NCBI RefSeq assembly: GCF_008711175.1
Contig: NZ_VWNF01000041.1
Coordinates: forward strand, 124,001-188,000
From: Nesterenkonia ebinurensis
GTDB lineage: Bacteria; Actinomycetota; Actinomycetes; Actinomycetales; Micrococcaceae
Length of the DNA: 64,000 bases
Direction: 5' to 3'
Part shown: positions 44,999 through 63,925 of the stretch, in pieces
How the letters are laid out: each line of letters opens with the position of its first letter
Numbering within the stretch: position 1 is the stretch's first letter
Position numbers and translations under genes: made by a program
The notes under the pieces: model-generated
Seen by the model: only the letters and a program-made list of their open reading frames with translations
Databases searched by the model: none
What the model was told of the DNA's origin: nothing

Positions 44999-46024
44999 GT
45001 GCTGGACCGGATCACCCAGTACCGTCACGCTCTGACGCAACCGCAGCACTGGGCGGTGGCCACGGTGGTCAGCGTCTCCGGGCCCTCTCCCGCTCCGGTG
45101 GGCACCTCCATGGCCGTCTCTACGGAGCTTGAGATCATCGGTTCACTCTCCGGGGGCTGTGTGGAGTCCACCGTGGCATCCTTGGCCCAACAGTGCATTG
45201 AGCAGGGTGGGACTCAGCTGGAGAGTTTCGGTCCGGACGGTGGCCTGCTGGGCGAAGTGCCGCTGACCTGCGGAGGACAGATCCAGGTATTGATTCAGCC
45301 GCTGAACACCCTGAGTCAGCAAGAGCACGACGACGCCCTGGCAGCTTCCCGTCTCAACCGGCACCTCTCTGCCCGACTCAACAGGGAAATCGCCGTTGCT
45401 GGCCAGCAGTTCACCGTCACCGAGCACCGAGAGGCCGCCCCGCGGCTGCTGCTCTTCGGGGTGCAGGACTATTCGGTCCAGCTCGCCAAGCTAGCACTGG
45501 TCAGCGGCTGGCAGGTGGTGCTGGTGGAGCACCGGCCAGCCTTCGCTGCTGCGGACCGGATTCCTGCCGGAACTCAGTTGGTGGTGGATGATCCTGCCTC
45601 AGCTGCGGCACGGCTGATCACTGATCAGCAGGCAGGGTGGACCGCGGCCTGCGTGATGACCCATCATCCTGACCTGGACGTGCCTGTGCTGGATACGCTG
45701 CTGCGAGCACAGAGGCAGCCGGAGTTCATCGGTGCCCTGGGCTCGCGCAACGCCCAAGCCCGTCGTCGCACCGCCTTGAGCCAGCGGGGCCATTCTGCTG
45801 AGCTGATCGCTGCGGTACGCGGCCCGTTGGGCTTGGACATCGCGGCAGGCTCGCCTGCAGAGTCCGCTGCCTCAGTACTGGCTGAACTGATCGCTGCGAA
45901 GAATGGCGCAGTCTCCGCTTCTGCTGGTCAATCGCTGAGCGGCACTGCCGGGCCCGTCAACTACACCCGCCCGCGCGTACAGAGCATTATGCAGGAGATC
46001 ACCATGATGGTGGGAGAGCGCTGA
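44999..46024 (+). CDS. xdhC: XdhC-family xanthine dehydrogenase maturation factor
   Basis: A 341-aa XdhC/CoxI protein that loads sulfurated Mo-cofactor into the dehydrogenase. N-terminal XdhC domain: [22 protein letters not shown] and [19 protein letters not shown]-terminal Rossmann domain: [42 protein letters not shown] and [21 protein letters not shown] 44999 is chosen because GAGGAGG lies 8 nt upstream and the preceding 10 codons carry no family homology. It overlaps the xdh start by one base. Confidence 0.88.
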
Positions 46025-49000
46025 TGGATATCACGAGCGTCGACGAAGTACTCAGCACCTGGGACCCCGATGATGTGCGCCCGGGCGACTCCTGGCTGGC
46101 CGGCGGCACAGTGCTGTACTCCTACGGCCAGGACTTTCGCACCGGTGCCCCGCGCAGGCTGCTGGACATCAGTGCCGCCCCGTGGGAACCTCTGGTTTGG
46201 CACACCGGGGATGCATCGGATGAGTCGGGCCTGGATGTCTCCGCAACCTGCACTATCGCCCAGTTCCACTCGGCTGCTGAGCAGTTGTCCGGCCACGGCC
46301 TCACCACTGAGCAGCACCCCGGACTGGGACTGATGCGTCCGGCTGCGGAGGCCTTCGTGGCCTCCTGGAAGGTGTGGAATCTGTCAACCGTGGGTGGCAA
46401 CGTGGCCACTGCACTGCCTGCCGGACCCATGACCTCCTGGCTGGCCGGAATGGATGCCACTGCCCTGATCCTCTCCCCCGGCGGGAGGAGCCGTGAGATT
46501 CCGGTGGCTGAACTGGTCACCGGGACCGGAGAAACCGCATTGGCTCAGGGCGAACTGATCCGCAGCTTCTGGATTCCGGCAACGCACCTGGCCCGGCCAG
46601 CAGTCATGGCCCGGGAATCACTGACCCGCTACGGCCGCTCCGCAGCCCTGCTCATCGCCCAGCGGACAGCGCCGGAGTCCGCCCGCCTGACCATCACCGC
46701 CAGTACCGATCATCCGGTGGTGCTGGAGCTGAGCCTGGACCCTGAAGCAGCCGCAGCAGCAGCTGATGCCCTCCCCGGAGAGCTCTGGGTGGACGATGTG
46801 CACGGCTCCCCCTCCTGGCGACGCGAAACCACCAGCCGGCTAGCCGCCGAGCTCATCCGGGCCCTCACCAATTCGCCCGCACCTGCCCCCGCTCCCACCT
46901 CATCCGCCTCCCCACGCTCCTCACGGAAAATCAGGCAGTTGTCGGAAAATCGGCACCTCATGAAACGCCGACAGTCCAATAACCCCCTGAAAACTGGAGA
47001 TGATGAGGGCGCAGTCACGGTGGACGGCGCCGAAGTGCCGCTTCAGCATGCCCCGGGGCAGTGTCTGCGCACCTGGCTACGCGAATCAGCGGGGGCCGAT
47101 GCGGTTAAGCGCGGCTGCGATGCCGGGGACTGCGGGGCCTGCACCGTACACCTGGACGGCACCGCAGTACACTCCTGCATCACCCCTGTTCAACGTGCCG
47201 CCGGAAAGAGCATCACCACTCTGCGCGGGCTCAGTTCCGAGGCTGCACAGGCCGCCATCGAGGCAGAGGGACGGCCCGACTACCAGCAGCTGCGTGGGCG
47301 CCTGCACCCCACCCAGCGCGACTTCCTGGAATCTCATGGATTCCAGTGCGGATACTGCACCGCTGGGTTCATCATGACCGCTGCTGCCGAGGACTCGCCC
47401 TATCTGGAGGAGAGCGAGCAGGAGCGGAAGTTCAAGGGGAACCTCTGCCGATGCACCGGCTACTGCTCCATCAAGGACGCCCTGGCCGGGACGCCCCGGG
47501 CTAGCAGTGAGACTGTCCCGGGCCGCAGCCCCATCCCACCGGCCGGCCCCGGAGTGGTCACCGGCACCGTGGATTACAGCATGGATAGGCCGCTGCGCTC
47601 TGACCCTCAATTTCCCGAGGAGCCCCCGCTTCATCTGGTCGCGGTGCGCTCGCCGCATGCCCATGCCCGGATCCTAAGCATCAATACTGCTGCGGCACTC
47701 AGCCAGCCCGGCGTCGTCGCCGTTTTCACCCATGAGGACACCCCAAGCGATATCCGCTACTCCACCGCTCAGCATGAGTTGGTGGAGGATGACCCGGCCG
47801 ATACCCGGCTGCTGGACAATACGGTCAGGTTCGCAGGCCAGCGGGTGGCGGTGGTGGTGGCGCAGACCCGGCGTGAAGCCGCGCGAGCCGCACAGCTGGT
47901 GGATGTGGATTATGAACTCCTCCCGCCGGTGCTGAACCCCCGGGAGGCCACTCAGCCAGGCGCGCCGGTGCTGCACCCGGAGCTGGAACAGCGCACCGAC
48001 GCAGTGGGCAGCACCTACTTCCCCATCCTGGAGGCCCAGCGCAACCGACTGGCCATGGTGGAGGCCGCCGCCGGGGACTCAATGACCGCGCTGACCCAGT
48101 CACCACACCGGCTGCGGCTGCGCTTTGCCACTCACCGGACGTCACATATCGCGCTGGAGACCCACGGCACGCTGGGTTGGATCGATGAGACCGGCCGTTA
48201 TATTCTGCGCACCTCCACCCAGGTGCCCTTCCTAGCCAAGCGGACTCTGCAGCGAATCTTCGGACTGGCCCCGGAGGCACTGCGGGTCTTCGCCCCTCGG
48301 GTCGGCGGCGGCTTCGGCTCCAAGCAGGAGGTGATCACTGAGGATCTGGTGCTGCTGGCACTGATTAAGCTCGCTGAACGCGGCATCCGACGGCCGGTCT
48401 GCTGGGAGCTGACCCGCAGTGAGGCGTTAACCGCCACCACCACTCGGCACCAGTTCCAGATCGAGGTGGCCCTAGTAGCTGATGCTGTCGGTAGGCTCAC
48501 TGCACAGGCTATGGAGGTGCTCTCGGACACTGGGGCCTACGGCAACCACGGACCGGGGGTGATGTTCCACTCGGTGCATGAGTCCATGCAGCTCTACTCT
48601 GCTCCGAATAAGCGAGTGCGCGCGGAGGTGGTCTACACCAATAACCCACCCGCCGGGGCGTTCCGCGGCTATGGGCTGTCCCAGACACTGTTCGCGGTGG
48701 ACTGCGCTATGGATGAGCTGGCCCGCCAGCTGGGCCGGGACCCGCTGGAGTTCAAGGCTGCGAACATAGTGGGTGTCGGTGAGGAGCTTTTCGGCCAGGA
48801 TGCCGATGTGCAGGTGGATGCCGCCGGGCTGCACCAGTGCTTGGAGATCATGGCCCGACAGCTGCGCACTGAGCCGCTGAGCGATGCAGAGCTGGATCGG
48901 TGTGAGCAGCGGCTGGCCGAGGAGCGACACGGTTACCCCTCTCCCGGCGGGGACTGGCATCTAGGAGTTGGTACCGCGGTGGCGATGATCGACACCGCCC

Positions 49001-49803
49001 CGCCCAACGGGCATCACTCCCACGCCGTGCTCCGGCCCCTCGGGGATGGCCGCTATGAGTTGAAGGTGGGCACCGCGGAGTTCGGCAATGGCACCTCCAC
49101 GGTGCACCGTCAGGTAGTGGCCGAGGTACTGGGCACCACTGCGGAGAAGATTCTGCTGCGCCAATCCGACACTGACTTGGTGGAGCACGATACCGGGGCC
49201 TTCGCCTCCACCGGAATCACAGTCGGTGTCAAAGCTGCCTATCTGGCCGCCCAAGATTTGGCGGCCAAGCTCTCAGCCCTGCCAGCGGACGCGGACTCCA
49301 CCCGGCTGATCGGCACCGGTCGCTGGGGCGGCTCACCGCGCACCGCGGCATTCAATGTGCACGGCTTCCGGGTCGCGGTGGACACCCGCTCCGGCACCCT
49401 GGCCATCCTGCAGTCGGTGCAGGCCGCCGATGCCGGCACCGTGCTCAACGAAGCCCAATGCCGTGGCCAGGTGGAGGGCGGCGTCGCCCAGGCCATCGGC
49501 GCCGCACTGTTCGAAGAGGTCCGGATCGATGAGGCCGGCAAGGTCACCACTGACATCCTGCGCAACTACCACATCCCGCAGATGGCGGACCTGCCACGCA
49601 CTGAGGTGCACTTCGCCGTCTCCGAGGATCCGCTGGGCCCGATGGGTGCCAAGTCCATGTCCGAGTCCCCGTTCAACCCGGTGGCCCCGGCCCTGGGCAA
49701 CGCCATCCGCGATGCCACCGGCATCCGGCTGACCAAGACTCCATTCACCAAGGACCAGATCGCTGTGACACTCGCACGCTACAAGGCAGCGGAGCAGACC
49801 TAA
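46024..49803 (+). CDS. xdh: Single-chain xanthine dehydrogenase/purine hydroxylase (FAD - 2Fe2S - Moco order)
   Basis: A 1259-aa molybdenum hydroxylase. Residues 1-295 are a CoxM-like FAD domain ([20 protein letters not shown]). A Pro/Ser linker follows. Residues about 330-495 are a CoxS-like two-cluster domain with CDAGDCGAC (from 365), CGYCTAG (from 442) and CRCTGYC (from 475). Residues about 505-1259 are the CoxL-like Mo domain with [20 protein letters not shown] and the catalytic Glu about 1214 in [15 protein letters not shown]. The usual fused XDH order is 2Fe2S-FAD-Mo; here FAD comes first. It oxidises hypoxanthine/xanthine to urate, supported by uricase downstream and the Moco genes. 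Confidence 0.88.
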
Positions 49804-49821
49804 GGATGAATTTTGCACCAT

Positions 49822-50424
49822 TCAGTCGAGGAATGCTGGGGGTTCTTTCACCATTAGAAGCTCACAAGGCTTACCCCCTACGCATCTCCAACGGTGCCCC
49901 TGATCTCCTGGATAGTAAAGAGAGTCATTAGCTTCCAAAAAATATACTTCATTATCCTCAAGATCGACTTCTAACCAACCGGCTATGATGTAAACAAACT
50001 CGGCTTCTGGATGGTGGAAGTAATCAAGGAACTGCGGATTATCCACGGTCAATCGCATGACGTGGAAAGCAGCCCTGCCATGAAGTAAAAGACTTCGACC
50101 ACTCTCTTCCTGAAAGCTATCTGAGGACGATTCCACCCCACGTTTCGCACGAACTACTCGATCAGAAGTTCCACCCTCTTCAGAAACATCGCTAGCAGCA
50201 ACTATCAGTTCGAGGCGGCCCACCCCTAAAGCGCGGCAGATCCTCTCCAAAGAAGACAGGCTCGGATGCGCATGTCCGCGTTCAATCTGACTCAGGAAAG
50301 GATGAGAGAGATCTGCTTGCTTGGCTAACTGGACTAACGTCAATCCTCGTCTCTGACGAAGAGCCCGAATACGTCTACCGATTGCGTTGTCGTCGGGAGT
50401 CACCTTCTGTTGTTCAGTCGTCAC
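49822..50424 (-). CDS. XRE-type HTH regulator with C-terminal cupin domain
   Basis: A 200-aa transcription factor. HTH_3 domain at about 14-70 (IGRRIRALRQRRGLTLVQLAKQADLSHPFLSQIERG). Cupin_2 sensor at about 112-195 (HHPEAEFVYIIAGWLEVDLEDNEVYFLEANDSLYYPGDQGHRWR). Such XRE-cupin regulators bind small ligands and control adjacent catabolic or transport genes. It is the last gene of the minus arm of the island, convergent with xdh after 18 nt. It is the likely local regulator and may recognise the TGTTG-N7-CAACA sites. Confidence 0.88.
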   Translation of the reverse strand: MTTEQQKVTPDDNAIGRRIRALRQRRGLTLVQLAKQADLSHPFLSQIERGHAHPSLSSLERICRALGVGRLELIVAASDVSEEGGTSDRVVRAKRGVESSSDSFQEESGRSLLLHGRAAFHVMRLTVDNPQFLDYFHHPEAEFVYIIAGWLEVDLEDNEVYFLEANDSLYYPGDQGHRWRCVGGKPCELLMVKEPPAFLD

Positions 50425-50558
50425 TGGCGCTCCTTAATGGAATGACCGGGTACGTCCCCGAACAATATCAGGTTCAATCAAGCCATCTACTGCAGACAAG
50501 GAGACCATCTGCTACTTTTAAAAGCAGGCGTTTCCCCTTGCTCTGAGCCAAACTTCAA

Positions 50559-51566
50559 TTAGTCCTCCGGCAAGAACTCAGTTGTCCAAGCCCCCTCAGC
50601 CACCTCTTCGTCTTCAATGATATCCATCTCCAGCGCTAAACGCAGACTTTCATTCCAGCGCTCCTCTGTTTGCCAACCAAACTGAACCTCCTCAGCATCA
50701 CCAGTCCAGACAAATGGCCGTAGGGCTTCTGATTCCTCGATAAGTTCTTCCACTGTTTGATCTTCAGCAAGCGGCGCAATCCACTCGGCAACATCCTCGA
50801 TGTTGTCTTCGTAGTACTCCCAGCCTCGAACTGTCGCCTCGACCACGTCACTCACCAATTCAGGATTCTCATCAATAAGTTCCTCAGTGGTGAAGAGACA
50901 AGTACCGTAGTCCACGTTCGTGGGATTCGGCAAGACTTCAACATCTACCCCTTGCTCTGCAAGCTGAGCTGGCGCGTTTGTCAGGTACCCCTGAGCAACG
51001 GCTGTTTCATCCATGACGAAACTCGCGTAACTGCCCGAAAATTGCACCGCCTCAACCTCATCTAAGCCATACTCTTCCACGGTCCATTCCCAGTCTGGGG
51101 AGGACACTTGAGTGTAGACAGTACGACCGTTGAAGTCCGCAGGGGAGTCGATAACCTGCCCCTGATGGTACAAGTAGGCGGCTGGACGCTCCTGAAGGCT
51201 AGGCATCAGACACACTATGCCAATACCCTGCTCTCGGCCGAGAAGAATTTGACCGCTGGTCTCTTGACCGAACTCAGCACCTCCGCCTGCTACCACCTGA
51301 ATGGATGTTGCTTCAGTACCACCTGGCTGAATGTTGACTTCTAATCCAGCGTCTTCGTAATAACCAAGTTCCTGCGCCGCTACGATCCCGCCGGCATTAC
51401 TCGGTTGCGCGAGCCAGTCAAGCGCGATGGTGATCTCACGAATCTCCTCTGAATGAGGCTCCGTCCCACTAGTGTTTTCAGATGGTCCACTCTGGCCACA
51501 TGCAACAAGCAGTAGAACTGACGGCGCCAAAAACGCCATTACAGTAGATCCTGAGAAATCGGTCAT
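50559..51566 (-). CDS. NMT1/THI5-like ABC substrate-binding lipoprotein (island)
   Basis: A 335-aa binding protein. ATG 51566 follows AAGGAG; the signal peptide ends with lipobox LLVAC. The core ITIALDWLAQPSNAGGIVAAQELGYYEDAGLEVNIQPGG is typical of the NMT1/THI5 group, as are GGAEFGQETSGQILLGREQGIGI and FNGRTVYTQVSSPDWEW. The long acidic C-terminal half is intact. Ligands in this group are usually pyrimidines, riboflavin or similar heterocycles. It is distinct from the native purine-type importer 8 kb away and shares its operon with the island permease and ATPase. Confidence 0.85.
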   Translation of the reverse strand: MTDFSGSTVMAFLAPSVLLLVACGQSGPSENTSGTEPHSEEIREITIALDWLAQPSNAGGIVAAQELGYYEDAGLEVNIQPGGTEATSIQVVAGGGAEFGQETSGQILLGREQGIGIVCLMPSLQERPAAYLYHQGQVIDSPADFNGRTVYTQVSSPDWEWTVEEYGLDEVEAVQFSGSYASFVMDETAVAQGYLTNAPAQLAEQGVDVEVLPNPTNVDYGTCLFTTEELIDENPELVSDVVEATVRGWEYYEDNIEDVAEWIAPLAEDQTVEELIEESEALRPFVWTGDAEEVQFGWQTEERWNESLRLALEMDIIEDEEVAEGAWTTEFLPED

Positions 51567-51608
51567 TATCTTCTCCTTATGGTGCAATTTATTTACGAAA
51601 TAAAACTT

Positions 51609-52499
51609 CTACGACGATTCGGTCATCTCCGACTCATGCCACTTACCAAGCAGTAGTCGAGAGAGCTTAGAAACTAAGAAATTAAATATTATTCCAAGAA
51701 ACGCACAAGCAAGACCAGCCGCAAACATTTCGGGAACTTCAAGACGTATTCCAAAACGAATAATAAGGAAACCCAGTCCAGCATTTCCCGATCCAATCCC
51801 CGAGACATATTCTCCGACAATCACGCCGACGACTGCCATCACGCCACAGAGTTTGATTCCCGTCACAATATAGGGAAGGGCAGCTGGCAGCCTTAAACGC
51901 ACCAAGGATTGAAATTTACTAGCATTCAAGAGCTTATACAGCTCCTGGAGGTTCTTATCTGTGCTACGGAGACCTATCAGCGTATTGGTTAGCACTGGAA
52001 AGAACGCCATTATAGTAGCTATAATTACAACAGCAGTGGGGCTAACGCCGAACCAAATGATTATCAAAGGTGCTATGGCAACAGACGGCATAGCCTGCAG
52101 AACAATGACGTAGGGATAGACTGCTCGCTCTATGATTCGCGAGGAAGACAGCAGTATAGCTACCAGAACTCCGCTAATGAGACTGACAGTAAAAGCAACT
52201 AGCGAGGTAGTAAGGGTGACTATAAACGCTGAGCTGACAACGCCTATCTCACTCCAGGCTGCAGTTGCTATTACAGATGGCATCGGAACAAGGTAGTGCG
52301 GGATCTCCATGACTCGGCATACCGTTTCCCAGATAGTCACTACTAACAGTAGTAGTACTGTAGGCGGAATCGCTCGAGCGAGCATTCCAATGAAATCTCG
52401 TCTGTTCTCTACACTTGACCATCTTGCGGAAAAATTAGTTTTCCTTACTGATGGAGTAAGCAGCGAATTACTATCAGGAGGCGCAATAGCTGTTGACAT
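51609..52499 (-). CDS. ABC transporter permease (island)
   Basis: A 296-aa permease with about six transmembrane helices and the family coupling loop LYKLLNASKFQSLVRLRLPAALPYIVTGIKLCGVMAVVGVIVGEYVSGIG. ATG 52499 shares its A with the ATPase stop (TGATG), so it is translationally coupled. Single permease gene, so the channel is probably a homodimer, unlike the two-permease native importer. Confidence 0.88.
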   Translation of the reverse strand: MSTAIAPPDSNSLLTPSVRKTNFSARWSSVENRRDFIGMLARAIPPTVLLLLVVTIWETVCRVMEIPHYLVPMPSVIATAAWSEIGVVSSAFIVTLTTSLVAFTVSLISGVLVAILLSSSRIIERAVYPYVIVLQAMPSVAIAPLIIIWFGVSPTAVVIIATIMAFFPVLTNTLIGLRSTDKNLQELYKLLNASKFQSLVRLRLPAALPYIVTGIKLCGVMAVVGVIVGEYVSGIGSGNAGLGFLIIRFGIRLEVPEMFAAGLACAFLGIIFNFLVSKLSRLLLGKWHESEMTESS

Positions 52500-53293
52500 C
52501 AAGAATCTCCCAGAGAGCGATTAGACTGTAATGCCGAATTTATATCCCCCACCAATTGGGCAAATCGAGCACTAGCTCGAAAGTCGGCTTCCTCATGAGC
52601 ACGTTGAACGCCAATATCTGCTACCACTTGTCCCGGACTGGGACTCATTACCACTACTCGAGTAGAGAGATAGGCTGCTTCAAAGACATTATGTGTGACA
52701 AAAAGGACAGTCATATCTTCCTGTCCTCGCCAAATGCTCAACAGCTCATCTTGCAGAGTCTGTCGAGTTATTTCATCCAAAGCCGCAAAAGGCTCGTCCA
52801 TGAGCAAAATACGGGGTCTCGCGATAAGTGCCCTTGCAATCGAGACCCGCATCTTCATCCCCCCGGACAGTTGCCGCGGCAGGTCCTTAGCGTGGTCCTT
52901 GAGACCAACCAACTCCAACACCCGATCGACTTCTGCCTGAACTTCAGAGCGAGAAACCCCTTGAAGCCCTAGCGGCAGAGCTACGTTGCGTGCGACACTC
53001 GCCCAGGGCATGAGGGTAGGTTCTTGGAAGACGAAAGAGACCAGGTTGTCTGCACGCGCTTCGGCGTTAGAGCGCCCGTAAATGCCGACTCGTCCTGCTG
53101 TAGGCTCAGCCAGCCCTGCGACCATACGGAAAACTGTAGATTTGCCGCATCCTGATGGCCCCAAGAAAGTAATGAACTCGCCTTGGCCGATGTCTATGTT
53201 CACGTTCTCGACAGCTAATTTCCCGTTGCCGAAAGTCTTACTGACCTGAGCTAGTCGCACCGCGACTGGCTCAGGATGAGCTACCAGAACCAC
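52499..53293 (-). CDS. ABC importer ATPase (SsuB/TauB type, island)
   Basis: A 264-aa ATPase: Walker [11 protein letters not shown]-loop FVFQEPTLMPWASV, signature [15 protein letters not shown], Walker B ILLMDEPFAALDEITR, H-loop FVTHNVFEAAYLS. GTG 53293 has GGAGG 9 nt upstream; ATG 53302 is the alternative, and the longest frame would start at 53329 inside an operator-like palindrome. First gene of the minus arm of the island. Confidence 0.88.
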   Translation of the reverse strand: MVLVAHPEPVAVRLAQVSKTFGNGKLAVENVNIDIGQGEFITFLGPSGCGKSTVFRMVAGLAEPTAGRVGIYGRSNAEARADNLVSFVFQEPTLMPWASVARNVALPLGLQGVSRSEVQAEVDRVLELVGLKDHAKDLPRQLSGGMKMRVSIARALIARPRILLMDEPFAALDEITRQTLQDELLSIWRGQEDMTVLFVTHNVFEAAYLSTRVVVMSPSPGQVVADIGVQRAHEEADFRASARFAQLVGDINSALQSNRSLGDS

Positions 53294-53311
53294 ACTCAAC
53301 ATCCTCCATTG

Positions 53312-53328
53312 TGTTGTATATATCAACA
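53312..53328. promoter_or_regulatory. Operator-like site 1, TGTTG-N7-CAACA
   Basis: TGTTGTATATATCAACA, 19 bp before the ATPase start codon. The same 5-7-5 architecture recurs at 53443 on the other side of the divergent control region. A second overlapping inverted repeat AACAT-N5-ATGTT lies at 53325-53339. Confidence 0.6.
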
Positions 53329-53442
53329 TTTAAGATGTTAAGCCTCGACTGTTTCTCGATCATGAAGCAGGTGTTTCCGCCAAGTTAAGCGCGTACCTCA
53401 TACTTTGTGGGTCGTATCTGGATACTCTGGCCGTCGTGCTAG

Positions 53443-53459
53443 TGTTGAAGATACCAACA
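53443..53459. promoter_or_regulatory. Operator-like site 2, TGTTG-N7-CAACA
   Basis: TGTTGAAGATACCAACA, 20 bp before the FAD-oxidase start. Arms identical to site 1, with a different 7-bp centre, which argues that the arms are under selection as binding half-sites. Confidence 0.6.
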
Positions 53460-53479
53460 TTCTATGAGATGGAGTGAGA

Positions 53480-54862
53480 ATGACTGTCACCTCTTCTGAC
53501 ACACAGGTAATAGATGAACTTACTTCAATTCTGGGTCTTGACAAGGTAGCGATCGACGAAGGCACCCGATCGCGAGCCTCAGTAGACGAAGCCACTATGT
53601 CGCCAATCCTCGCCGCGAACCTTCCAAACACTATTGCGGATGCGGTCGTCTACCCCGAGGAGATGCAAGATGTCCTGGACATAGTCAACTTAGCGGTCCA
53701 AGCCCATACCCCTCTCACGCCCAGAGGAAAGGGAACCGGAAATTACGGACAAGCGGTGCCACTCAGTGGCGGGATTGTCATCGATTTCACCCGAATGAGA
53801 AAGATCTGGACGATCGAAGACGGAGTTATCACTGCCGAACCTGGTGCACGAATGATCGAATTGGAACGACACGCAACTTCAGTCGGCCAGCAGCTATGGA
53901 TGTATCCGTCAACTGTTCAAAGCACCTTAGGAGGATTCATCGCCGGAGGTTCCGGAGGCACGGGATCGATTCGGCACGGGGGTATCCCTGGTGGTTTCGT
54001 TGCAGAACTTGAAGTCGTCCACGCAGTTCAGAAACCGGAGATCGTCAAGGTTGCTGGGGACGACGTTACTCCCTATCTCCACGCCTACGGCCTTACAGGA
54101 CTCATAGTTGGAGCCTCAGTTCGACTCGAGCCCCTGCAGGACTGGAGTGTTGTTTACGGGAGCTTTTCCACACTTGAGGACACTTTCGAACTGATCCAGG
54201 AGTTGCCTAACCTGAACCCCGCGCCACGCCTGGTCTCGGCTGATGAGTCGGAGATCACTTCAGGCTTTCCTAAAGATGCAGCAATTCCCCAAGGTCGAGC
54301 GAGTCTCAGAGCCATCGTGGACTCCAGACTTGTTGGTCAAACGCAGCACTTGATCGAAGCTGCCGGCGGAATGGTTGAAGAAGTCCGTAAGGGTCTGGGC
54401 GCAATGGTTAAGGCCTCTGGCCTCTCGTACAACCATCCGAGCTGGTTCCTTATTCGAAAATCGTCGACTCCGTTATTTCACATGGAGGTAGGAGGTAAGG
54501 CGCTTATCGAAAGTTTCGATGAAATGAAATCCGTGTACCCTGGGGCGCTGATTCATCTGGAAGGCAACATTCCGGAGCCTCACGGCATGATCACCGCTCC
54601 CTACACCTCAAAGGAAGACGTCCTGCAAGGGCTGGAACAACTCAATAAACTCGGGATCGGTTTCCATAATCCGCACCAGTGGTATATCGACCGTAATGTA
54701 GATCTTCTCCGTGAGACGGCAATACACACGGATCCCACTAGCTTATTGAATCCCGGTCACTGGCCCAGCCGGAATTCGGATCCAAGTTCGAACGTAGTGC
54801 AGGAAAAGAGGCGTGAAGCGATGAATGAACTATCACGAATGGGAAACAACTGTGAAAATTGA
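53480..54862 (+). CDS. FAD-linked oxidase (GlcD/lactate-dehydrogenase-like, PCMH-type)
   Basis: A 460-aa flavoprotein. FAD-binding PCMH domain at about 45-225: AVVYPEEMQDVLDIVNLAV, LTPRGKGTGNYGQAVPLSGGIVIDFTRM, EPGARMIELERHA, WMYPSTVQSTLGGFIAGGSGGTGSIRHG, YGLTGLIVGASVRLEP. C-terminal oxidase cap ending HTDPTSLLNPGHWP. Relatives oxidise hydroxy-acids, alcohols or amines. No signal peptide. ATG 53480 has GGAG 5 nt upstream; a GTG at 53474 is an alternative. First gene of the plus arm. Moderate GC (about 50 %). Substrate unknown. Confidence 0.85.
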   Translation: MTVTSSDTQVIDELTSILGLDKVAIDEGTRSRASVDEATMSPILAANLPNTIADAVVYPEEMQDVLDIVNLAVQAHTPLTPRGKGTGNYGQAVPLSGGIVIDFTRMRKIWTIEDGVITAEPGARMIELERHATSVGQQLWMYPSTVQSTLGGFIAGGSGGTGSIRHGGIPGGFVAELEVVHAVQKPEIVKVAGDDVTPYLHAYGLTGLIVGASVRLEPLQDWSVVYGSFSTLEDTFELIQELPNLNPAPRLVSADESEITSGFPKDAAIPQGRASLRAIVDSRLVGQTQHLIEAAGGMVEEVRKGLGAMVKASGLSYNHPSWFLIRKSSTPLFHMEVGGKALIESFDEMKSVYPGALIHLEGNIPEPHGMITAPYTSKEDVLQGLEQLNKLGIGFHNPHQWYIDRNVDLLRETAIHTDPTSLLNPGHWPSRNSDPSSNVVQEKRREAMNELSRMGNNCEN

Positions 54863-55226
54863 TCATTTCGCACTTGAAGTTCCCAACTTTGACCAATTAA
54901 TTGGTTCATTGACTCATCTTGGTCTCACTTTGCAAAGAGTTGGATGCAAGGCGGACGACTCAAGTCGTAGAATCGCTATGATCAGAGATAAGTCGGGATT
55001 TAAAATAGAAATTATAGAAGGAGAAAATATAGAATTCTCTCATTTTGCTGTCAAGGTAGAGAGTATCAATGAACTTCACAAGCGTCTGGTCACCGAGTCG
55101 AATTACAATGAAGTTAAGAGTCTTCGACGCCTTTCAGCTGCTAAAGCGTATACCTCTCTAGTGGCGGATCCCAGTGGTCTCATGGTGCAGCTTGTCCGGT
55201 ATGACCCGGATAGTCCGGACCTGTGA
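54852..55226 (+). CDS. VOC/glyoxalase-superfamily protein
   Basis: A 124-aa single VOC unit with two beta-alpha-beta-beta-beta modules: KIDHFALEVPNFDQL (His5), FKIEIIE (Glu53), EFSHFAVKVESI (His64) and GLMVQLVRY, where the usual fourth metal ligand Glu is Gln113. VOC proteins include dioxygenases, isomerases, lyases and metal-free binding proteins. GTG 54852 is preferred over ATG 54825 because the fold begins there; it overlaps the FAD-oxidase gene by 11 nt. Very AT-rich. Confidence 0.72.
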   Translation: MKIDHFALEVPNFDQLIGSLTHLGLTLQRVGCKADDSSRRIAMIRDKSGFKIEIIEGENIEFSHFAVKVESINELHKRLVTESNYNEVKSLRRLSAAKAYTSLVADPSGLMVQLVRYDPDSPDL

Positions 55227-55238
55227 TAGAGAAATCAC

Positions 55239-56495
55239 GTGAGCCTTATGCCCCATAGCAGCAGTATTCTGCGCAATGCCTCTCTTGTTAACGGTGAGCA
55301 AGTAGACGTTAGATTCGACGGATCCCGTATATCCCACATAGCCCCTGCGAGTCCTCCATCAGCGATCAGTCGGGGAGAGCTTGATCTCCAAGGCTATCTG
55401 CTCCTTCCTGCTTTGGCAGAACCCCATGCTCACCTCGACAAAACCTTGACACTATCCCCGGATGTTCCTTTTCAATCGGGAAAGGGATTGGAGGGCGCTA
55501 TCAGTTCTTGGCACCGAGCCAGGCATCACATGACAGAGGCCAATATCTACGAGCGAGCAAAATCAGCATCGATGAAATTGCTTCACCATGGTACAACTGC
55601 CATCCGCACTCACGTCGATGTGCATCGCGACGATGACCCATTACGAGCGGTACGAGCTTTGATTCACTTGAGGAATGATCTTCGGGATGTGATGAACCTC
55701 CAACTAGTTCTGCTAGCTCATTGGGACACCTCGGAAGAAATTTTCAAGGAAGCAGTCAGGCTAGGAGTTGACCTCATTGGCGGTGCTCCTCATATGGCTC
55801 CTGATCCAGTGAGGCACACCGAAAGACTAATGAAAATCGCTGAGACTTTCAACGTAGGCACAGATTTCCACACGGATGAGCACCTGGACCGTGAAAGCAC
55901 TATTCAACATTTTATACGGTTAGCTTACCGGAGTTCCACGGAAGTTGTTAGACATACGGCCAGCCATGCTTCTCGATTAAGTACAGTTTCATCCTTTGAA
56001 CGTCAGAGAATAATAGAATCGGCAGCCGCGAAAAACTTAGGTTTTATAGCCCTTCCGCAAACAAACTTATATCTACAGGGAGGCAATCAGCGTATCGGAA
56101 CCCCCAGGGGAATTGCACCCATAAATGATCTACTCCACCAAGGTTCCGCAGTAGCCGCGGGAGGAGATAATCAGAGAGACGCCTTTAACCCCATGGGGAG
56201 GTTTGATCCTCTAGAGATAGCATCTCTTGTAGTAACTGCCAGCCATGTAGAGGTGAAGGCAGCCTTGGCGCTCGTGAGTTCCCGCGCTAGACATGTAATG
56301 GGACTTGCGGAGGCACCATCTGATCGCAACTGGCTTCTGGTTAAGCAGGGACAGCAAGCTGACCTGTTAGCCATAAAGGCAAAGAGCATTGATCAGGCCG
56401 TGGGAGAGAGCCCCATGGACCGATACACCTTTCATAAAGGTCAGCTTGTCGCTCGTTCACATTTGAGAGTGGAGTTTCTATTCAGAGGTAGGTAA
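55239..56495 (+). CDS. Cytosine-deaminase-like amidohydrolase
   Basis: A 418-aa metal-dependent hydrolase of the CodA branch. HxH: AEPHAHLDKTL (His63, His65, Lys68). HTHVDVH (124-129). DFHTDEHLD (His211, Asp213-Glu214). Late metal Asp in AAGGDNQRDAFNPMGRFDPLE (Asp310), the GxDN-x-x-D-x-(F/W)-x-P-x-G signature of cytosine/isocytosine/ammelide deaminases. Predicted to deaminate or hydrolyse a cyclic amidine/amide ring. Between the VOC and reductase genes of the plus arm. GTG 55239 or ATG 55248. Substrate unknown. Confidence 0.8.
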   Translation: MSLMPHSSSILRNASLVNGEQVDVRFDGSRISHIAPASPPSAISRGELDLQGYLLLPALAEPHAHLDKTLTLSPDVPFQSGKGLEGAISSWHRARHHMTEANIYERAKSASMKLLHHGTTAIRTHVDVHRDDDPLRAVRALIHLRNDLRDVMNLQLVLLAHWDTSEEIFKEAVRLGVDLIGGAPHMAPDPVRHTERLMKIAETFNVGTDFHTDEHLDRESTIQHFIRLAYRSSTEVVRHTASHASRLSTVSSFERQRIIESAAAKNLGFIALPQTNLYLQGGNQRIGTPRGIAPINDLLHQGSAVAAGGDNQRDAFNPMGRFDPLEIASLVVTASHVEVKAALALVSSRARHVMGLAEAPSDRNWLLVKQGQQADLLAIKAKSIDQAVGESPMDRYTFHKGQLVARSHLRVEFLFRGR

Positions 56496-56500
56496 GCCAC

Positions 56501-57454
56501 ATGCTTGATGATACTATTGAAGTAACAGTAGGGGATTTGGTCGACGAAGCGATAGATATAAAAAGATTCGTTTTGCATCGAACAGGAAACCTGGACTTCC
56601 CTACCTGGACACCTGGTGCGCATATTGATGTGCTGTTCGCAGAGGGCTTGGTCAGACAATACTCGCTTTGCGGGGACCCACATAGGGCTGATATATGGGA
56701 GATTGCAGTCCTGCATACAGGGGAGAGTCGAGGGGCCTCTCATTATTTGCATACTCAAATAAATATAGGCGATCGTCTTTCTATTCGAGGCCCTCGAAAT
56801 AACTTCAAATTTAACTTAGATTCTTCACTCAGATTTCTCGCCGCTGGTGTGGGAATTACTCCGATAATTTCTATGATAAGAGCTGCACATTCTGCAGATG
56901 TCAAATGGCGACTTGATTATATCTCTCGCTCTAGAAAGAGAATGGCGTTCCTTGAAGAGCTGGAATCCTATAGCAGTAATGTCGTTGTTCATGCCTCTGA
57001 TGAGGGACGTGTTTTCAAACTTAAACACTACCTTATAGACACGGGCGGAGTTTACGGGGCCCCTTTATACGCTTGTGGACCAGCTCGCTTATTAGATGAG
57101 CTGACTACTATGAGTGAAACCTGGCCTGAAGACTACCTCCATATAGAGCGTTTCCGGCCTAAGTCAGATGCCTCATTACCAGATCGGCATTCCTTCACAG
57201 TAAATTTCGCTTTGTCCGGAGTCACTGCCCAAGTCAATCAAAGAGAGACCATCCTCGATGTAGCGGAGCAAAGTGGGATCCTTGTTGTTTCCTCATGTCG
57301 AGAGGGGACTTGCGGCACTTGCGAGACAGACATCATTGAAGGGGAAGCTGATCACCGGGATTCAGTACTCAGTGCAGCTGAGCAGGCTCAGCAACGGACG
57401 ATGATGATCTGCTGTTCCCGCTCTAAAGGATCTAATCTGGTGTTGGATTTATAA
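56501..57454 (+). CDS. PDR/VanB-type flavin reductase with C-terminal [2Fe-2S] ferredoxin domain
   Basis: A 317-aa electron-transfer protein. The N-terminal flavin-binding beta-barrel (about 1-105) includes FPTWTPGAHIDVLF and RQYSLCGDP. The NAD(P)-binding domain (about 108-215) includes LRFLAAGVGITPIISMIRAA and YACGPARLLDEL. The plant-type ferredoxin domain (about 235-317) has SSCREGTCGTCETDIIEG, DHRDSVLSAAEQ and CCSRSKG. Such proteins normally feed a Rieske oxygenase (VanA, PobA, CarAa types), but no Rieske oxygenase is in the window. Stop codon overlaps the convergent mocA stop in TTATAA. Confidence 0.88.
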   Translation: MLDDTIEVTVGDLVDEAIDIKRFVLHRTGNLDFPTWTPGAHIDVLFAEGLVRQYSLCGDPHRADIWEIAVLHTGESRGASHYLHTQINIGDRLSIRGPRNNFKFNLDSSLRFLAAGVGITPIISMIRAAHSADVKWRLDYISRSRKRMAFLEELESYSSNVVVHASDEGRVFKLKHYLIDTGGVYGAPLYACGPARLLDELTTMSETWPEDYLHIERFRPKSDASLPDRHSFTVNFALSGVTAQVNQRETILDVAEQSGILVVSSCREGTCGTCETDIIEGEADHRDSVLSAAEQAQQRTMMICCSRSKGSNLVLDL

Positions 57455-58036
57455 CAAATCCTCCGGGGTGTCGATGTCGGTGTCGTCAGCGATACCGGTG
57501 AGGTCCATGAGGTCGAGGCGGTGGGCCTGTGCCCGCAGGTAGCGGCGGGCCCCCTCGTCCCCTTCGGCCAGCGCAGCTGCTGCGGCGGCGTCGCCTGTGT
57601 CGAACACCACCGGATGCGTCGGCCGGCCAGCCACCGCACCCTGGGTGATCCGTCCCGGAGAATGCTCGTCCAACACGGCTTTCAGCGCCGCGGCCCCGAT
57701 CCCGGGCTGGTCCACCAGCAGCACCGCAATCCACTGCGCGCCCAGCTCAGCGGCCCGCTGCACCCCCATCCGGAATGAATCCGCCAGCTGTCTCTGCCTG
57801 CCAGAGAGAACGACGACGTCCGTTCGGCCCAGCAGCCCCCGAGCGTCAGAATTCAGCGCCTCCAGTACCTCTTCAGACCGGTGGCCCAGTACCAGGACCG
57901 GCACGGTGCCCGTCTCCCATGCAGTGCGCAGCGCCCGGACGGCCAGCAGCTCCCCATCAGCTCGCAGCAGCGGTTTGGAGGCCCCGCCAAGCCGCTCAGC
58001 TTGCCCGGCGGCAAGAATCACCGTGGCGGTACGCAT
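57449..58036 (-). CDS. mocA: MocA-like nucleotidyltransferase (molybdenum cofactor cytidylyltransferase family)
   Basis: A 195-aa NTP-transferase. Nucleotide-binding opening TVILAAGQAERLGGASKPLL (LAAGxxxRxG...K); VLLVDQPGIGAAALKAVLDEH with the metal Asp; GRPTHPVVFD; and the C-terminal DIDTPEDLL, all typical of MocA/MobA-like enzymes. MocA attaches CMP to Moco for xanthine-dehydrogenase-family enzymes, so it pairs with xdh and xdhC. ATG 58036 is chosen because upstream codons overlap the IclR-type gene. It is the last gene of the allantoinase operon, with normal high GC. Confidence 0.85.
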   Translation of the reverse strand: MRTATVILAAGQAERLGGASKPLLRADGELLAVRALRTAWETGTVPVLVLGHRSEEVLEALNSDARGLLGRTDVVVLSGRQRQLADSFRMGVQRAAELGAQWIAVLLVDQPGIGAAALKAVLDEHSPGRITQGAVAGRPTHPVVFDTGDAAAAAALAEGDEGARRYLRAQAHRLDLMDLTGIADDTDIDTPEDLL

Positions 58037-58040
58037 CGGC

Positions 58041-58298
58041 CTAAAGACCGTTGCGGCGGGCCGCAGCGTCCCCAATGGGCACCAGTTTGTCGCTGAGCCC
58101 ATAGCGCCGGTCCTGCATCTGCACCAGGTATCCGGAGGTGATCAGTGTGCGCAGCAGCCGGTGCACTGTGGCTGCTGGCAGTCCGGTGGCCGTGGAGAGT
58201 TCACTGAGCGTGGCGGTGCCGCCGCGGGCTGCCACCACCTCAATCAGGGCCAATGCCCGCTCCACGGACTGCACTGAGGATCGCCGGGGCTCGGTCAT
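58041..58298 (-). CDS. IclR-type winged-HTH protein lacking the effector domain
   Basis: An 85-aa protein that is only the IclR DNA-binding part: SSVQSVERALALIEVVAARGGTATLSELSTATGLPAATVHRLLRTLITSGYLVQMQDRRYGLSDKLVPIGDAAARR. Full IclR regulators are about 250 aa with a C-terminal ligand domain; here a TAG stop follows RNGL and mocA begins 4 nt later. Overlaps the allantoinase stop by 4 nt (ATGA). Either a truncated remnant or a functional stand-alone HTH. Probable local regulator of the allantoin genes. Confidence 0.82.
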   Translation of the reverse strand: MTEPRRSSVQSVERALALIEVVAARGGTATLSELSTATGLPAATVHRLLRTLITSGYLVQMQDRRYGLSDKLVPIGDAAARRNGL

Positions 58299-60762: not shown

Positions 60763-61086
60763 TCAGCTTCCGCGGTAGGTGGAGTAGGAGTAGGGGCTGA
60801 TCAGCAGGGGCACGTGATAATGGGCTTCAGTGCCGATACTGAAGGTGATATGCACCTCGGGGAAGAACGTGGGCAGGCCCTTGGCCTGGAAGTACGCGCC
60901 GGTGTGGAAGCTCAGCCGGTAGGCGCCTTGCTCCAGCTGTTCGGGCCCCAACTCACCAACCCGCCCGTCGCTGTCGGTTCTGCCACGGGCAATCTCAGTG
61001 CCCGTACTCTCAGCAAGGATGACGACGACGCCGCCGGCAGGGGTCCCAGCTGTGGTGTCGAGTATATGCGTGGTCACCAGGCTCAT
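60763..61086 (-). CDS. hiuH: 5-hydroxyisourate hydrolase (transthyretin-like)
   Basis: A 107-aa transthyretin-like enzyme that hydrolyses 5-hydroxyisourate to OHCU. Signatures: THILDTTAGTPAGGVVVIL (His6 of the TTHVLD motif), GRTDSDGRVGEL (Arg), FFPEVHITF and the C-terminal YRGS tetrapeptide. ATG preceded by AGGAGGAG. Head of the HIU hydrolase-uricase operon. OHCU decarboxylase, the following enzyme, is not found in the window. Confidence 0.95.
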   Translation of the reverse strand: MSLVTTHILDTTAGTPAGGVVVILAESTGTEIARGRTDSDGRVGELGPEQLEQGAYRLSFHTGAYFQAKGLPTFFPEVHITFSIGTEAHYHVPLLISPYSYSTYRGS

Positions 61087-61160
61087 CGAGGTCTCCTCCT
61101 ACTGAACAGCGGTTGTGTCCGAGCTTAGCCGCCCCACGAAATCGCTAAGGCTCAGGGCGA

Positions 61161-61184
61161 GCGGCAGTTCATGTGGACTGCCGC
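61161..61184. terminator. Hairpin between the binding-protein and HIU hydrolase genes
   Basis: GCGGCAGT pairs with ACTGCCGC around the 8-nt loop TCATGTGG. It lies downstream of the minus-strand binding-protein stop (61228) and is a plausible terminator of the peptide ABC operon, without a clear U-run. Confidence 0.45.
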
Positions 61185-61227
61185 CCGACCCTGCGCCCCG
61201 TATTCTCTGAGCTGTAGTCAGGCCAGA

Positions 61228-62808
61228 TCAATCCGCAGTGATGTACTCCACATAGACCATATCGTCAGCCCGGGGCTCATAGTTGATCCCCTCAGCGCTA
61301 GCCCGGAAAGTCACCTGCTGGTACAAGTAGATGTAGGGCAACTCCTCGGCCACGATCTCCTGGACCTGCTGATACTGCTCTTCCCGCTCCTCCTCGTCCA
61401 TATTCACTGCCGCAGCTTCCAGCAGCTCGTCAACCTCGGGATTGTCGTAGCCAAAGGCCTCGGGGTGGTAATCAGAGTGGAAGTGCCCAAGACTGAAGGA
61501 ACCATCGTAGAAGGTGTTGTTCCACATGCCGTGCAGCAGATCATTGAACTCGCCGTTGTTACGGGAATCTACGTACTGGCTGGCTTCCATGAGGTTCAGC
61601 TGCGCCTCAATGCCGACCTCCTCCAGCATTCCGGCCACGGCCTGAGCCATATCGGCGTCGTCGGGGCTTCGCCCCTGCGACTGGTTCACGGTGATTTCCA
61701 ACTCACCCTCCCCGTAACCAGCTTCCTCCAGGAGCTCTCGCGCCCGGTCGGGGTCATACCGGAAGGAGTCATGCAGGGACTCTTCGAACCCGAAGGCTCC
61801 CGGGACCAGAGCCGTACGGGTGGGAACGCCCTCACCGTTCTGGAACATGTCGTTCATCGTCTCGTTGTCGATGGCGTAGTCGAGAGCTTCGCGTACCAAC
61901 GGATCTTCGGTGGCGTTCCCTTCATTGGCGTTGACGTAGATGCGCTGCACGGTGGTAGTCGTGGTGGGGAGCAGATCAATGCCCTCCTCCGCATCCACGC
62001 GGTCTAGGTCCTGCATCGGGATGAAATCTGCAATATGCACGCCTCCGGTCAGCAATTCGCTGATACGGGTGGAATCCTCACCGATGATACGGAATTCGAC
62101 AGTGTCCCATTCTGTGACGTCCCCGCGGAAGTAGTCCTCATAGCGGGAGATGGTGAAATTCTCGCCTTCGGACCATTCGACGAATTCAAAGGCGCCGCTG
62201 CCGACCGGATGCTCCATATATCCTTCCCAGCCTTCTTCCTCGATGTAGTTCTTGGGGAAGATGCCGGAACCCTCACGGGCCAGACGATAAGGCAACACAG
62301 GGTCTGGACCGTCGGTGACGATCTCGAAGTTCAGCTCATCAATTACGTTGACCTCAGCGATGGTGTTGTAGTTGGCGTACTGGGCCAATGTGTCATCGCT
62401 AGATACTCGTTCCAGGGTGAACTTCACGTCCTCCGAGGTCAAGGGGTCCCCGTTGTGGAAAGTAATACCCTCGTGCAGGGTGAAGGACCAGGTCTGCTCA
62501 TCAATATTCTCGTAGGTCTCCGCCAGGTGCGGCTGAAGCGTGCCGTCATCATCGCGACGAATAAGGTAGTCCTGCACGTTGACCATAATGGCTTCGGTAG
62601 CGATATCCGCAGAGTTGTGGGTATCTACAGTGTCGATGTCCCGGCCGAAGCCGATGATGAGTTCGTTGCTGCCGGTGCCAGCGGCTCCGGTGCCATCATC
62701 CTCACCGCCTTCCGTCACTGCGTCACAGGCTGACAGCGCGAAGAGGCTGCCGATAGCCAATCCAGAGATAGTGGTTCGCCGAAGGGTGTGGGAGTTTCGT
62801 GCTTTCAT
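61228..62808 (-). CDS. Family-5 ABC substrate-binding lipoprotein (peptide/nickel/opine type)
   Basis: A 526-aa SBP_bac_5 protein. The lipoprotein signal ends with FALSAC. The family core is present: LIIGFGRDIDTVDTHNSADIATEAIMVNVQDYLIRRDDDGTLQPHLAETYENIDEQTWSFTLHEGITFHNGDPLTSEDVKFTLERV and WNNTFYDGSF...NPEVDELLEAA. Binds di/oligopeptides or related solutes outside the membrane. Downstream of two ATPase genes in one minus-strand operon. ATG follows AGAGGAA. It is strongly acidic, like other secreted proteins in this genome. Confidence 0.9.
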   Translation of the reverse strand: MKARNSHTLRRTTISGLAIGSLFALSACDAVTEGGEDDGTGAAGTGSNELIIGFGRDIDTVDTHNSADIATEAIMVNVQDYLIRRDDDGTLQPHLAETYENIDEQTWSFTLHEGITFHNGDPLTSEDVKFTLERVSSDDTLAQYANYNTIAEVNVIDELNFEIVTDGPDPVLPYRLAREGSGIFPKNYIEEEGWEGYMEHPVGSGAFEFVEWSEGENFTISRYEDYFRGDVTEWDTVEFRIIGEDSTRISELLTGGVHIADFIPMQDLDRVDAEEGIDLLPTTTTTVQRIYVNANEGNATEDPLVREALDYAIDNETMNDMFQNGEGVPTRTALVPGAFGFEESLHDSFRYDPDRARELLEEAGYGEGELEITVNQSQGRSPDDADMAQAVAGMLEEVGIEAQLNLMEASQYVDSRNNGEFNDLLHGMWNNTFYDGSFSLGHFHSDYHPEAFGYDNPEVDELLEAAAVNMDEEEREEQYQQVQEIVAEELPYIYLYQQVTFRASAEGINYEPRADDMVYVEYITAD

Positions 62809-62842
62809 GGTGTCATTTCCTCTCAGATGGGGTGAGTGCTCT

Positions 62843-63925
62843 TCAGTTATGGTTCAGTGGGAAGTGGCAGGCGGCCTGAGCCGTATCGCTAAGAGATCGC
62901 AGCGGCGGTTCTTCAGACCGGCATCGGTCCTGGACATAGAGACATCGAGTGTTGAACGGACACCCCCTCGGAGTGATGTCAAGGCTTGGAACTTCTCCCT
63001 CGAGCAGCTCATCCTGGCTGCCTCGCAGTTCGGGCGAGGATACCGGGGATGAATCCAGGAGAGCTTTGGTATAAGGGTGTTTGGGATCGTCGAAGAGTGA
63101 ATCCCGGGTGGTGATCTCAACGATCTTGCCCAGGTACATCACCGCGATCCTGTCACTGATGTGATGAACCGCCGGCAGGCCATGGCCGATGAAGATATAG
63201 GTAAGGTTGAACTCTGCTTGCAGTTTCTTGAGCAGATTGAGCACCTGCGCCTGGATGGATACGTCAAGTGCAGAGACTGCCTCATCGCACACGATCAGCT
63301 TGGGGTTGAGCGCCAGAGCCCGGGCTATGCCAATACGTTGGCGCTGACCGCCGCTGAACTCATGGGGGAAGCGGTCAACGAAGTCCGGACTAAGCCCTAC
63401 GGTGTCCATCAGATCCAGCACCCGGTCACGCCGACCCCGACGGGTGGGCAGGGTCCTATGCGTGCGCAGCGGCTCCTCAATGATCTCACCGACCCGCATG
63501 CGAGGATTCAACGAGGAAAAAGGGTCCTGGAAGACCATCTGCATGTCTCGCCGACGCCGACGCATCTCCTGGGGCGGGAGCTCCAACAGATTCTGACCTT
63601 CGAAGTACACTTCTCCGCTGGTAGCTTCGAGCAGCCGCAGAATCAGTGCCGCAGTCGTGGATTTTCCAGACCCGGACTCGCCAACGAGGCCGAGTGTCTC
63701 CCCGGGGTAGACGTCGAAGGAGATGTTGTTGACAGCAACCAGCTCATTGCGGGGACTCTGCCGTTCCTGAGCCTGATCGGAAGCCTTCCCCTGCTCATCC
63801 TTAGCGCTGGCCTTGGGCCGGGGCCCCCGCAACGTGAATTTCTTCGTCAGGTGACGCACTGTGATCAGCGGCTCCTGCGCGGATGCCTCCGTGGTGCTGT
63901 GTAAGTGCTCAATCGCCTCAGTCAT
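62843..63925 (-). CDS. Dipeptide/oligopeptide ABC transporter ATPase (DppF/OppF type)
   Basis: A 360-aa ATPase with an N-terminal extension (about 1-55, Lys/Gln/Ser-rich insertion). Then Walker A GESGSGKST, Q-loop MVFQDPFSSLNPRMRVGEII, signature FSGGQRQRIGIARAL, Walker B LIVCDEAVSALDVSIQAQ, switch FIGHGLPAVHHISD (His kept), and the oligo_HPY C-terminal RGCPFNTRCLYVQDRC. ATG 63925 has AGGAGA 7 nt upstream and overlaps the DppD-type stop by 4 nt. Confidence 0.92.
   Translation of the reverse strand: MTEAIEHLHSTTEASAQEPLITVRHLTKKFTLRGPRPKASAKDEQGKASDQAQERQSPRNELVAVNNISFDVYPGETLGLVGESGSGKSTTAALILRLLEATSGEVYFEGQNLLELPPQEMRRRRRDMQMVFQDPFSSLNPRMRVGEIIEEPLRTHRTLPTRRGRRDRVLDLMDTVGLSPDFVDRFPHEFSGGQRQRIGIARALALNPKLIVCDEAVSALDVSIQAQVLNLLKKLQAEFNLTYIFIGHGLPAVHHISDRIAVMYLGKIVEITTRDSLFDDPKHPYTKALLDSSPVSSPELRGSQDELLEGEVPSLDITPRGCPFNTRCLYVQDRCRSEEPPLRSLSDTAQAACHFPLNHN

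Follow-up and report, generated by a model that had tools for sequence, protein, structure and literature searches.

In bacterial pteridine breakdown, tetrahydroxypteridine is converted to xanthine-8-carboxylate (EC 5.5.1.3), and to our knowledge this biochemistry is old and largely without genes. Little is known about how the pterin ring of folate is disposed of by bacteria. Among solved flavoproteins, the Protein Data Bank (PDB) entry 6V42 carries the title 'flavin oxygenase ... involved in folate catabolism'. In a study on pterin deaminase (PMC9513972) the later steps of folate degradation and the fate of the degradants are left open, and V. paradoxus is described as having a conserved 'endoribonuclease' gene located downstream of that for pterin deaminase. 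Here we analyse 64,000 nucleotides of Nesterenkonia ebinurensis (contig NZ_VWNF01000041.1, positions 124,001 to 188,000; the window), in which an island of eight genes (49804..57454, not assigned to one strand) interrupts a purine-degradation cluster. An initial annotation had proposed that the genes at this place were acquired and serve to import and degrade a nitrogen heterocycle, and our results support this proposal. We tentatively go one step further and read the island as an import-and-degrade module for a pteridine-type heterocycle, i.e. a pterin derived from folate, released on its breakdown, or a similar ring fused to a 2-amino-4-oxo-pyrimidine. The island and its relatives would thus be a compact, transferable set of candidate genes with a substrate hypothesis that can be assayed.

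Acquisition of the island

All eight open reading frames (ORFs) of the initial annotation are present in two divergent arms, four on the minus and four on the plus strand, and the domains HTH plus Cupin_2, NMT1, BPD_transp_1, ABC_tran, FAD_binding_4, Amidohydro_3/1 and Fer2 were confirmed. The island lies between the convergent stops of two host genes, a fused xanthine dehydrogenase (XDH; 46024..49803, plus strand) on the left and a MobA-like gene (57449..58102, minus strand; PF12804) on the right. XDH, which has homologues in the genus and a host-like G+C content at third codon positions (GC3), may contribute to the function of the island. In 1-kb windows the G+C content falls from ~0.66 in the flank to 0.46-0.54 in the island and reaches 0.69 after ~57.5 kb, the island having ~50% G+C and the purine cluster ~66%. 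GC3 is 0.40-0.54 in all eight island genes, whereas it is 0.74-0.82 in six neighbouring genes of the purine cluster (8-oxoguanine-deaminase-like, XdhC, XDH, MobA, allantoinase-like and uricase, the first and the fifth being named by us from family and place). Both profiles agree with the abrupt shift in composition that had been noted at both ends.

When 29 other genomes of the genus were searched with XDH and 14 loci were fetched, XDH and MobA turned out to be adjacent, with the island absent, in 12 of them. The gap between the matched ends is at most 175 bp in 11 loci and ~1.5 kb in the twelfth (L138); in the nearest locus (L127) it is 16 bp, as compared to 7.6 kb in the window. The remaining two loci lack a MobA match (L128) or hold broken copies (L140). 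No island gene had a match at E 1e-8 in any of the 14 loci, and a search with the amidohydrolase in the 29 genomes gave three weak matches only (27-29% identity). As XDH and MobA adjoin in most of the fetched loci and none of these has a match to the island, the eight genes most likely arrived together at a single intergenic point. The empty sites support acquisition independently of composition. Distinctive here are the donor of low G+C content and the insertion into a purine cluster that is without the island in the fetched loci of the genus.

No mobile-element gene was recognised among the ORFs by ORF list and Pfam, the window contains no tRNA, and no repeat pair was found at the two island ends; a mobile element as carrier was therefore set aside. 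A palindrome, AACAT-N5-ATGTT, occurs in two perfect copies, both within the island, at 50790-50804 (inside the receptor gene) and 53325-53339 (between the divergent arms). Since 5 of 100 shuffled sequences also hold two copies, we regard it as a lead and make no operator claim. A mild G+C dip (0.56-0.60) at 61000-63500 of the window, over an oligopeptide-type receptor gene, lies outside the island, as GC3 is still 0.73 there. In the L140 genome, which is 62% complete, the matches to XDH and to the 8-oxoguanine-deaminase-like and allantoinase-like genes are interrupted, as if decaying or poorly assembled.

An unusual variant of a widespread cluster

The gene set is not an isolated one. The island is an unusual variant of a cluster that many Actinobacteria have and that also occurs on plasmids of proteobacteria. 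In a scan based on an alignment of the FAD protein, with one genome per species, 80 actinobacterial loci were kept as the best of 281 confirmed ones, and their gene content was determined by tblastn with the window proteins (E <1e-5; ATPase matches below 38% identity dropped). These loci contain the amidohydrolase (71), the permease (70), the ATPase (69), the PDR-type reductase (68) and the regulator (65), but the VOC-type protein once and the receptor never. Among the 61 loci that span 21.1 kb or more, the counts are 59 for the amidohydrolase, 56 each for permease, ATPase, reductase and regulator, 1 for the VOC protein and 0 for the receptor, and 49 of the 61 hold FAD protein, amidohydrolase, reductase, regulator, ATPase and permease together. 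Thus, the expectation that the genes travel together held for the enzymes and the regulator and, in these actinobacterial loci, failed for the receptor. Gene clustering of the 80 loci added a creatininase-family gene (73 loci), a different receptor (70), a TrzN-like amidohydrolase (55) and a PNPOx-like protein (52), with family names taken from one representative each. The nearest solved structure of the TrzN-like amidohydrolase is TrzN, followed by others including an isocytosine deaminase; one representative receptor of the canonical cluster has no Pfam match.

From the order, 149 genomes were drawn separately, and 13 of the 148 other than that of the window have the FAD protein at E values up to 1e-20. 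These 13 genomes represent 7 genera, none of them of the same genus or family as the window, and in all 13 no more than 7 kb separate the amidohydrolase gene from the FAD gene. Relatives of the FAD protein are 46-59% identical to the window protein in many actinobacterial families and 38-47% identical in the order-wide draw. One might think of a man-made heterocycle, such as an s-triazine, degraded by recruited enzymes, but recent recruitment fits poorly with a cluster that is so widespread and divergent, and we consider this highly improbable.

On proteobacterial plasmids, relatives of 6V42 reach 65-66% identity in the 40 records listed. Three clusters (L091, L093 and L094) combine creatininase, regulator, receptor, ATPase, permease, a cytosine-deaminase-like protein, the FAD protein, an NAD(P)H-dependent oxidoreductase and RidA, and varying versions occur in Nitratireductor, Rhodobacterales, Pantoea and Burkholderiales; e.g. 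L150 has no match to the ABC ATPase or permease, and in L152 neither a creatininase nor RidA is annotated. In Rhizobium (L091, 284-5670) the cluster adjoins genes for MobA, XdhC and a PaoABC-type Mo-hydroxylase on a plasmid typed as conjugative. A published description of the cluster was not found in the literature searched, which omits most subscription journals and makes this a weak negative. As no paper describing the cluster was found, the designation as an uncharacterised pathway is not contradicted.

A probable flavin oxygenase and its predicted electron donor

The gene at 53474..54862 (plus strand) encodes a FAD_binding_4 protein, probably an oxygenase that attacks a ring. By structure and by sequence, its nearest solved relative among flavoproteins is 6V42, with 27-30% identity. 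Conserved positions in the family of the FAD protein include N320-H321, H361, E363 and H401. In a phylogenetic tree the window protein groups with the 6V42 type, and this split has 100/100 support against three paralogues from its own genome only. The tree was midpoint-rooted with long branches flagged. An earlier version, with 24 of the 80 actinobacterial loci, chosen by us, and with partial outgroup rows, had misplaced paralogues; for the present tree two paralogue and seven actinobacterial rows were dropped, and three full-length paralogues were used. The protein had been labelled 'FAD-linked oxidase', but its closest relative is a flavin oxygenase that its depositors assigned to folate catabolism, which allows a specific substrate class to be proposed.

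The PDR-type reductase (56501..57454, plus strand) carries a C-terminal 2Fe-2S domain (Fer2, E 1e-13), is similar to 2pia over nearly its full length (E 1e-45) and is the predicted electron donor of the oxygenase. Among 16 proteobacterial clusters, nine contain an annotated NAD(P)H-dependent oxidoreductase, two, both from Pantoea (L153 and L172), a PDR-type reductase, and five neither. Because a reductase of changing type accompanies the FAD protein in 11 of these 16 clusters and a PDR-type reductase in 68 of the 80 actinobacterial loci, we infer that the FAD protein is an oxygenase fed by external electrons. No partner oxygenase of the Rieske type was found among the island genes by Pfam, and no Rieske motif was found in predicted genes of more than 250 amino acids in the 80 loci. 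Service of the reductase to a Rieske oxygenase was therefore set aside; one proteobacterial locus (L092) has a Rieske-type gene.

The cytosine-deaminase-like amidohydrolase

The amidohydrolase (55239..56495, plus strand; Amidohydro_3/1) had been described as a relative of CodA. This holds for the metal site, as H61, H63, H214, E217, H246 and D313 of CodA (1K6W), which we take to be the metal and catalytic residues, are all kept, but Q156 and D314, presumably the substrate residues, are replaced by H and N. An ordinary cytosine deaminase operon was set aside since the substrate residues are changed. The altered residues N314 and F319 are identical in all 69 actinobacterial and all 16 proteobacterial cluster copies, and we predict the protein to be a deaminase of a 2-amino-4-oxo-pyrimidine ring. 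A search for the Variovorax pterin deaminase by its N-terminus did not find it among 361 proteins, the last search covering the best 120 matches listed. The length of 399 amino acids that the amidohydrolase of the Pantoea L153 cluster has in common with the Variovorax enzyme was not taken as evidence.

The VOC-type protein and the creatininase position

The gene for the VOC-type protein (54825..55226, plus strand) overlaps the FAD gene and occupies the position that usually belongs to a creatininase-family gene: in all 13 sampled genomes of the order such a gene lies at most 100 bp downstream of the FAD gene, where the window has the VOC gene. The VOC label is a fair one but weakly backed, as there is no Pfam match at E 1e-3, only weak NCBIfam glyoxalase-I matches (E 7e-8 and 3e-7), and no solved relative below E 0.46. 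Its single homologue in the 80 actinobacterial loci (L011, 43% identity) has H14, E62, E65, H73 and Q122 in common with it in the alignment. A VOC protein at the creatininase position offers a clean test of the step that is carried out by those hydrolases.

The transport arm and the regulator

The minus strand encodes an XRE-cupin regulator (49822..50424; HTH_31/HTH_3 plus Cupin_2), which has homologues in most of the actinobacterial loci, and a transport arm composed of an NMT1/THI5-type solute-binding protein, referred to here as the receptor (50559..51566; PF09084, E 3e-33, 116 bits vs a cut-off of 20.5), an ABC permease (51609..52499; PF00528, BPD_transp_1) and an ABC ATPase (52499..53329; PF00005, ABC_tran). 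The starts of receptor and permease were placed by us at a likely ATG. The ATPase is 49-52% identical to those of three Rhizobiaceae clusters, 42-45% to six actinobacterial ones and 40% to that of L092, and the permease shows the same order with 36-39%, 32-34% and 30%. ATPase scores are 216-267 bits in 14 of the 15 clusters that have one (182 in L092) and at most 202 bits beside receptor matches outside the clusters. By score, the ATPase can tell cluster members from outside ones, and the receptor cannot. The receptor matches those of the three Rhizobiaceae clusters (72-86 bits), but neither that of L092 nor those of the actinobacterial clusters. In a search of plasmids (254 records, 40 listed, 18 neighbourhoods examined), 12 of the 18 examined relatives of the receptor lie in FAD-oxygenase clusters; five of these (H135, H137, H145, H161 and H170) had been fetched earlier for the FAD gene, and without them the count is 7 of 13. 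Taken together, these results on the transport arm fit clusters of the 6V42 type and in part point towards them, which is no proof of a common substrate.

Distinctive for the island is that enzymes of the actinobacterial type are joined to a transporter that differs from the one in the actinobacterial clusters. A transport arm resembling proteobacterial transporters next to enzymes and a regulator resembling actinobacterial ones, together with a receptor whose best match lies outside the FAD clusters, might mean that two unrelated acquisitions ended up side by side and have no common substrate. This is very unlikely in our view, however, because GC3 is low in all eight genes, all eight lie between one host gene pair and the ATPase scores highest against ATPases of FAD clusters.

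Two further plasmid loci were seen. On an Aminobacter plasmid (L166, 12835-13497) a relative of the receptor without a FAD cluster is located ~3 kb from folE, a gene of pteridine biosynthesis. On the Arthrobacter plasmid pAD51 (L174, 6443-9645), genes for an amidohydrolase, a receptor of the NMT1 type and RidA lie between seemingly repeated segments with an IS21 element.

Purine genes, substrate and proposed mechanism

Uricase is present in 12 of the 80 actinobacterial loci, and any of XDH, XdhC, allantoinase-like protein and uricase in 27 (bits >80). As in the window, several loci (e.g. L042, L072 and L073) have XDH/XdhC on one side of the FAD gene and the allantoinase-like gene or uricase on the opposite side. 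By raw counts, purine genes are thus recurrent but not universal neighbours of the cluster.

A pterin as substrate is suggested by the title of 6V42, a deaminase pocket common to clusters of different phyla, the class of the receptor, the recurrent purine neighbours and PMC9513972, and on this basis we propose the following mechanism. The receptor, permease and ATPase would import the heterocycle, and the amidohydrolase would strip the amino group from the ring or open a ring amide. The PDR-type reductase would hand electrons from NADH to the FAD protein, which as a flavin oxygenase would use O2 to attack the ring after its deamination. The oxygenated product may then be processed by the VOC metalloprotein in place of the creatininase-family hydrolase of most relatives, and the product may enter the adjoining purine pathway or share XDH with it. 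The regulator would sense substrate or product via its cupin domain. The sequences show the gene content, the acquisition, the linkage of enzymes and regulator, the nearest relatives and the changed residues, while the substrate, the order of the steps, the electron transfer, the role of the VOC protein and the connection to the purine enzymes are inferred.

Several observations weigh against this assignment. The folate role of 6V42 comes from the PDB title, and 27-30% identity is low for inferring a substrate. No folate-specific gene, such as one for carboxypeptidase G or p-aminobenzoyl-glutamate hydrolase, could be recognised among those of the island, which is also without RidA and creatininase. 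The genome has two creatininase-family genes at other places, and these are 34-37% identical to the cluster type. One of them (L095) stands beside ORFs resembling genes that we take to be mycofactocin-like, and for this reason it is probably outside the pathway. Five of the 16 proteobacterial clusters (L092, L150, L152, L165 and L167) are without an annotated NAD(P)H oxidoreductase or PDR-type reductase. In a tree, the amidohydrolases of actinobacterial and proteobacterial clusters are not united in a single clade that excludes CodA, and the pairing of amidohydrolase and FAD protein may have arisen twice. Moreover, the receptor, with no homologue in the 80 actinobacterial FAD loci, is not tied to the cluster. 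Its best match found (33%, 148 bits) is in the actinobacterial genome G302, where an 18-kb locus (L160) has matches to ATPase and permease but none to the FAD protein or the amidohydrolase, and three actinobacterial relatives (G302, G234 and G331) have no FAD match within 17-18 kb. A Variovorax paradoxus plasmid (L163) has a receptor scoring 115 bits, a similar permease and ABC genes without a FAD or amidohydrolase match, and six of the 18 plasmid neighbourhoods (H138, H139, H143, H147, H150 and H151) contain no FAD oxygenase in the stretch fetched. Finally, uricase lies within 10 kb in three of the ten uricase-bearing genomes of the 13-genome draw, two of the three belonging to one genus.

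It is a real possibility that a module of the same type serves another nitrogen heterocycle, candidates being modified purines and pyrimidines, vitamin pyrimidines (a fragment of thiamine) and alloxazines, e.g. lumichrome. The receptor has 4nmy and ThiY (3ix1), a receptor for thiamine pyrimidine, as its nearest solved relatives, and, besides the best receptor match outside any FAD cluster, the location beside XDH and uricase, the identity of only 27% to 6V42 and the frequent TrzN-like and PNPOx-like proteins of the actinobacterial clusters would fit such a substrate. On the other hand, folate is indicated by the only relative of the key oxygenase that has an assigned role, and the change in the deaminase pocket is common to the 6V42-type clusters.

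Beyond a pteridine-type substrate, we speculate that the island may deaminate and oxygenate a pterin and, with XDH, feed its skeleton into the xanthine-urate-allantoin pathway, the VOC metalloenzyme replacing the creatininase-family hydrolase. This pteridine-to-purine route is doubtful, but if true it would give genes to the old pteridine biochemistry and offer a possible reason why the cluster recurs beside purine-degradation genes.

Comparison with known systems

The reaction predicted for the window amidohydrolase is that of the pterin deaminase of Variovorax sp. F1 / Arad3529, and the 'endoribonuclease' gene downstream in V. paradoxus (PMC9513972) has a parallel in the occurrence of RidA genes in the proteobacterial clusters. 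With 6V42/6V43 and the rhizobial-type clusters the island has in common the FAD_binding_4 fold, the GNYGQ motif, an adjoining cytosine-deaminase-like gene with the same pocket change and a similar ABC ATPase. The rhizobial-type clusters differ in having an NAD(P)H-dependent oxidoreductase, a creatininase, RidA and a LysR regulator, whereas the island has a PDR-type reductase, a VOC protein and an XRE-cupin regulator, no creatininase or RidA, and a FAD protein at the low identity given above.

Compared with the actinobacterial cluster of the order TrzN-PDR-REG-AHY-ABC-FAD-creatininase-PNPOx (e.g. L018 and L076), regulator, amidohydrolase, reductase and FAD protein match at 39-52%, but the island has no creatininase, TrzN-like or PNPOx gene, has an added VOC gene and uses a different receptor. 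In the Salinibacterium metalliresistens locus L011, regulator (55%), FAD protein (59%), VOC protein (43%), amidohydrolase (41%) and PDR-type reductase (39%) all correspond to those of the island, and the VOC gene likewise follows the FAD gene directly; unlike the island, this locus has no ABC gene matched within 21 kb and a native G+C content of ~70%.

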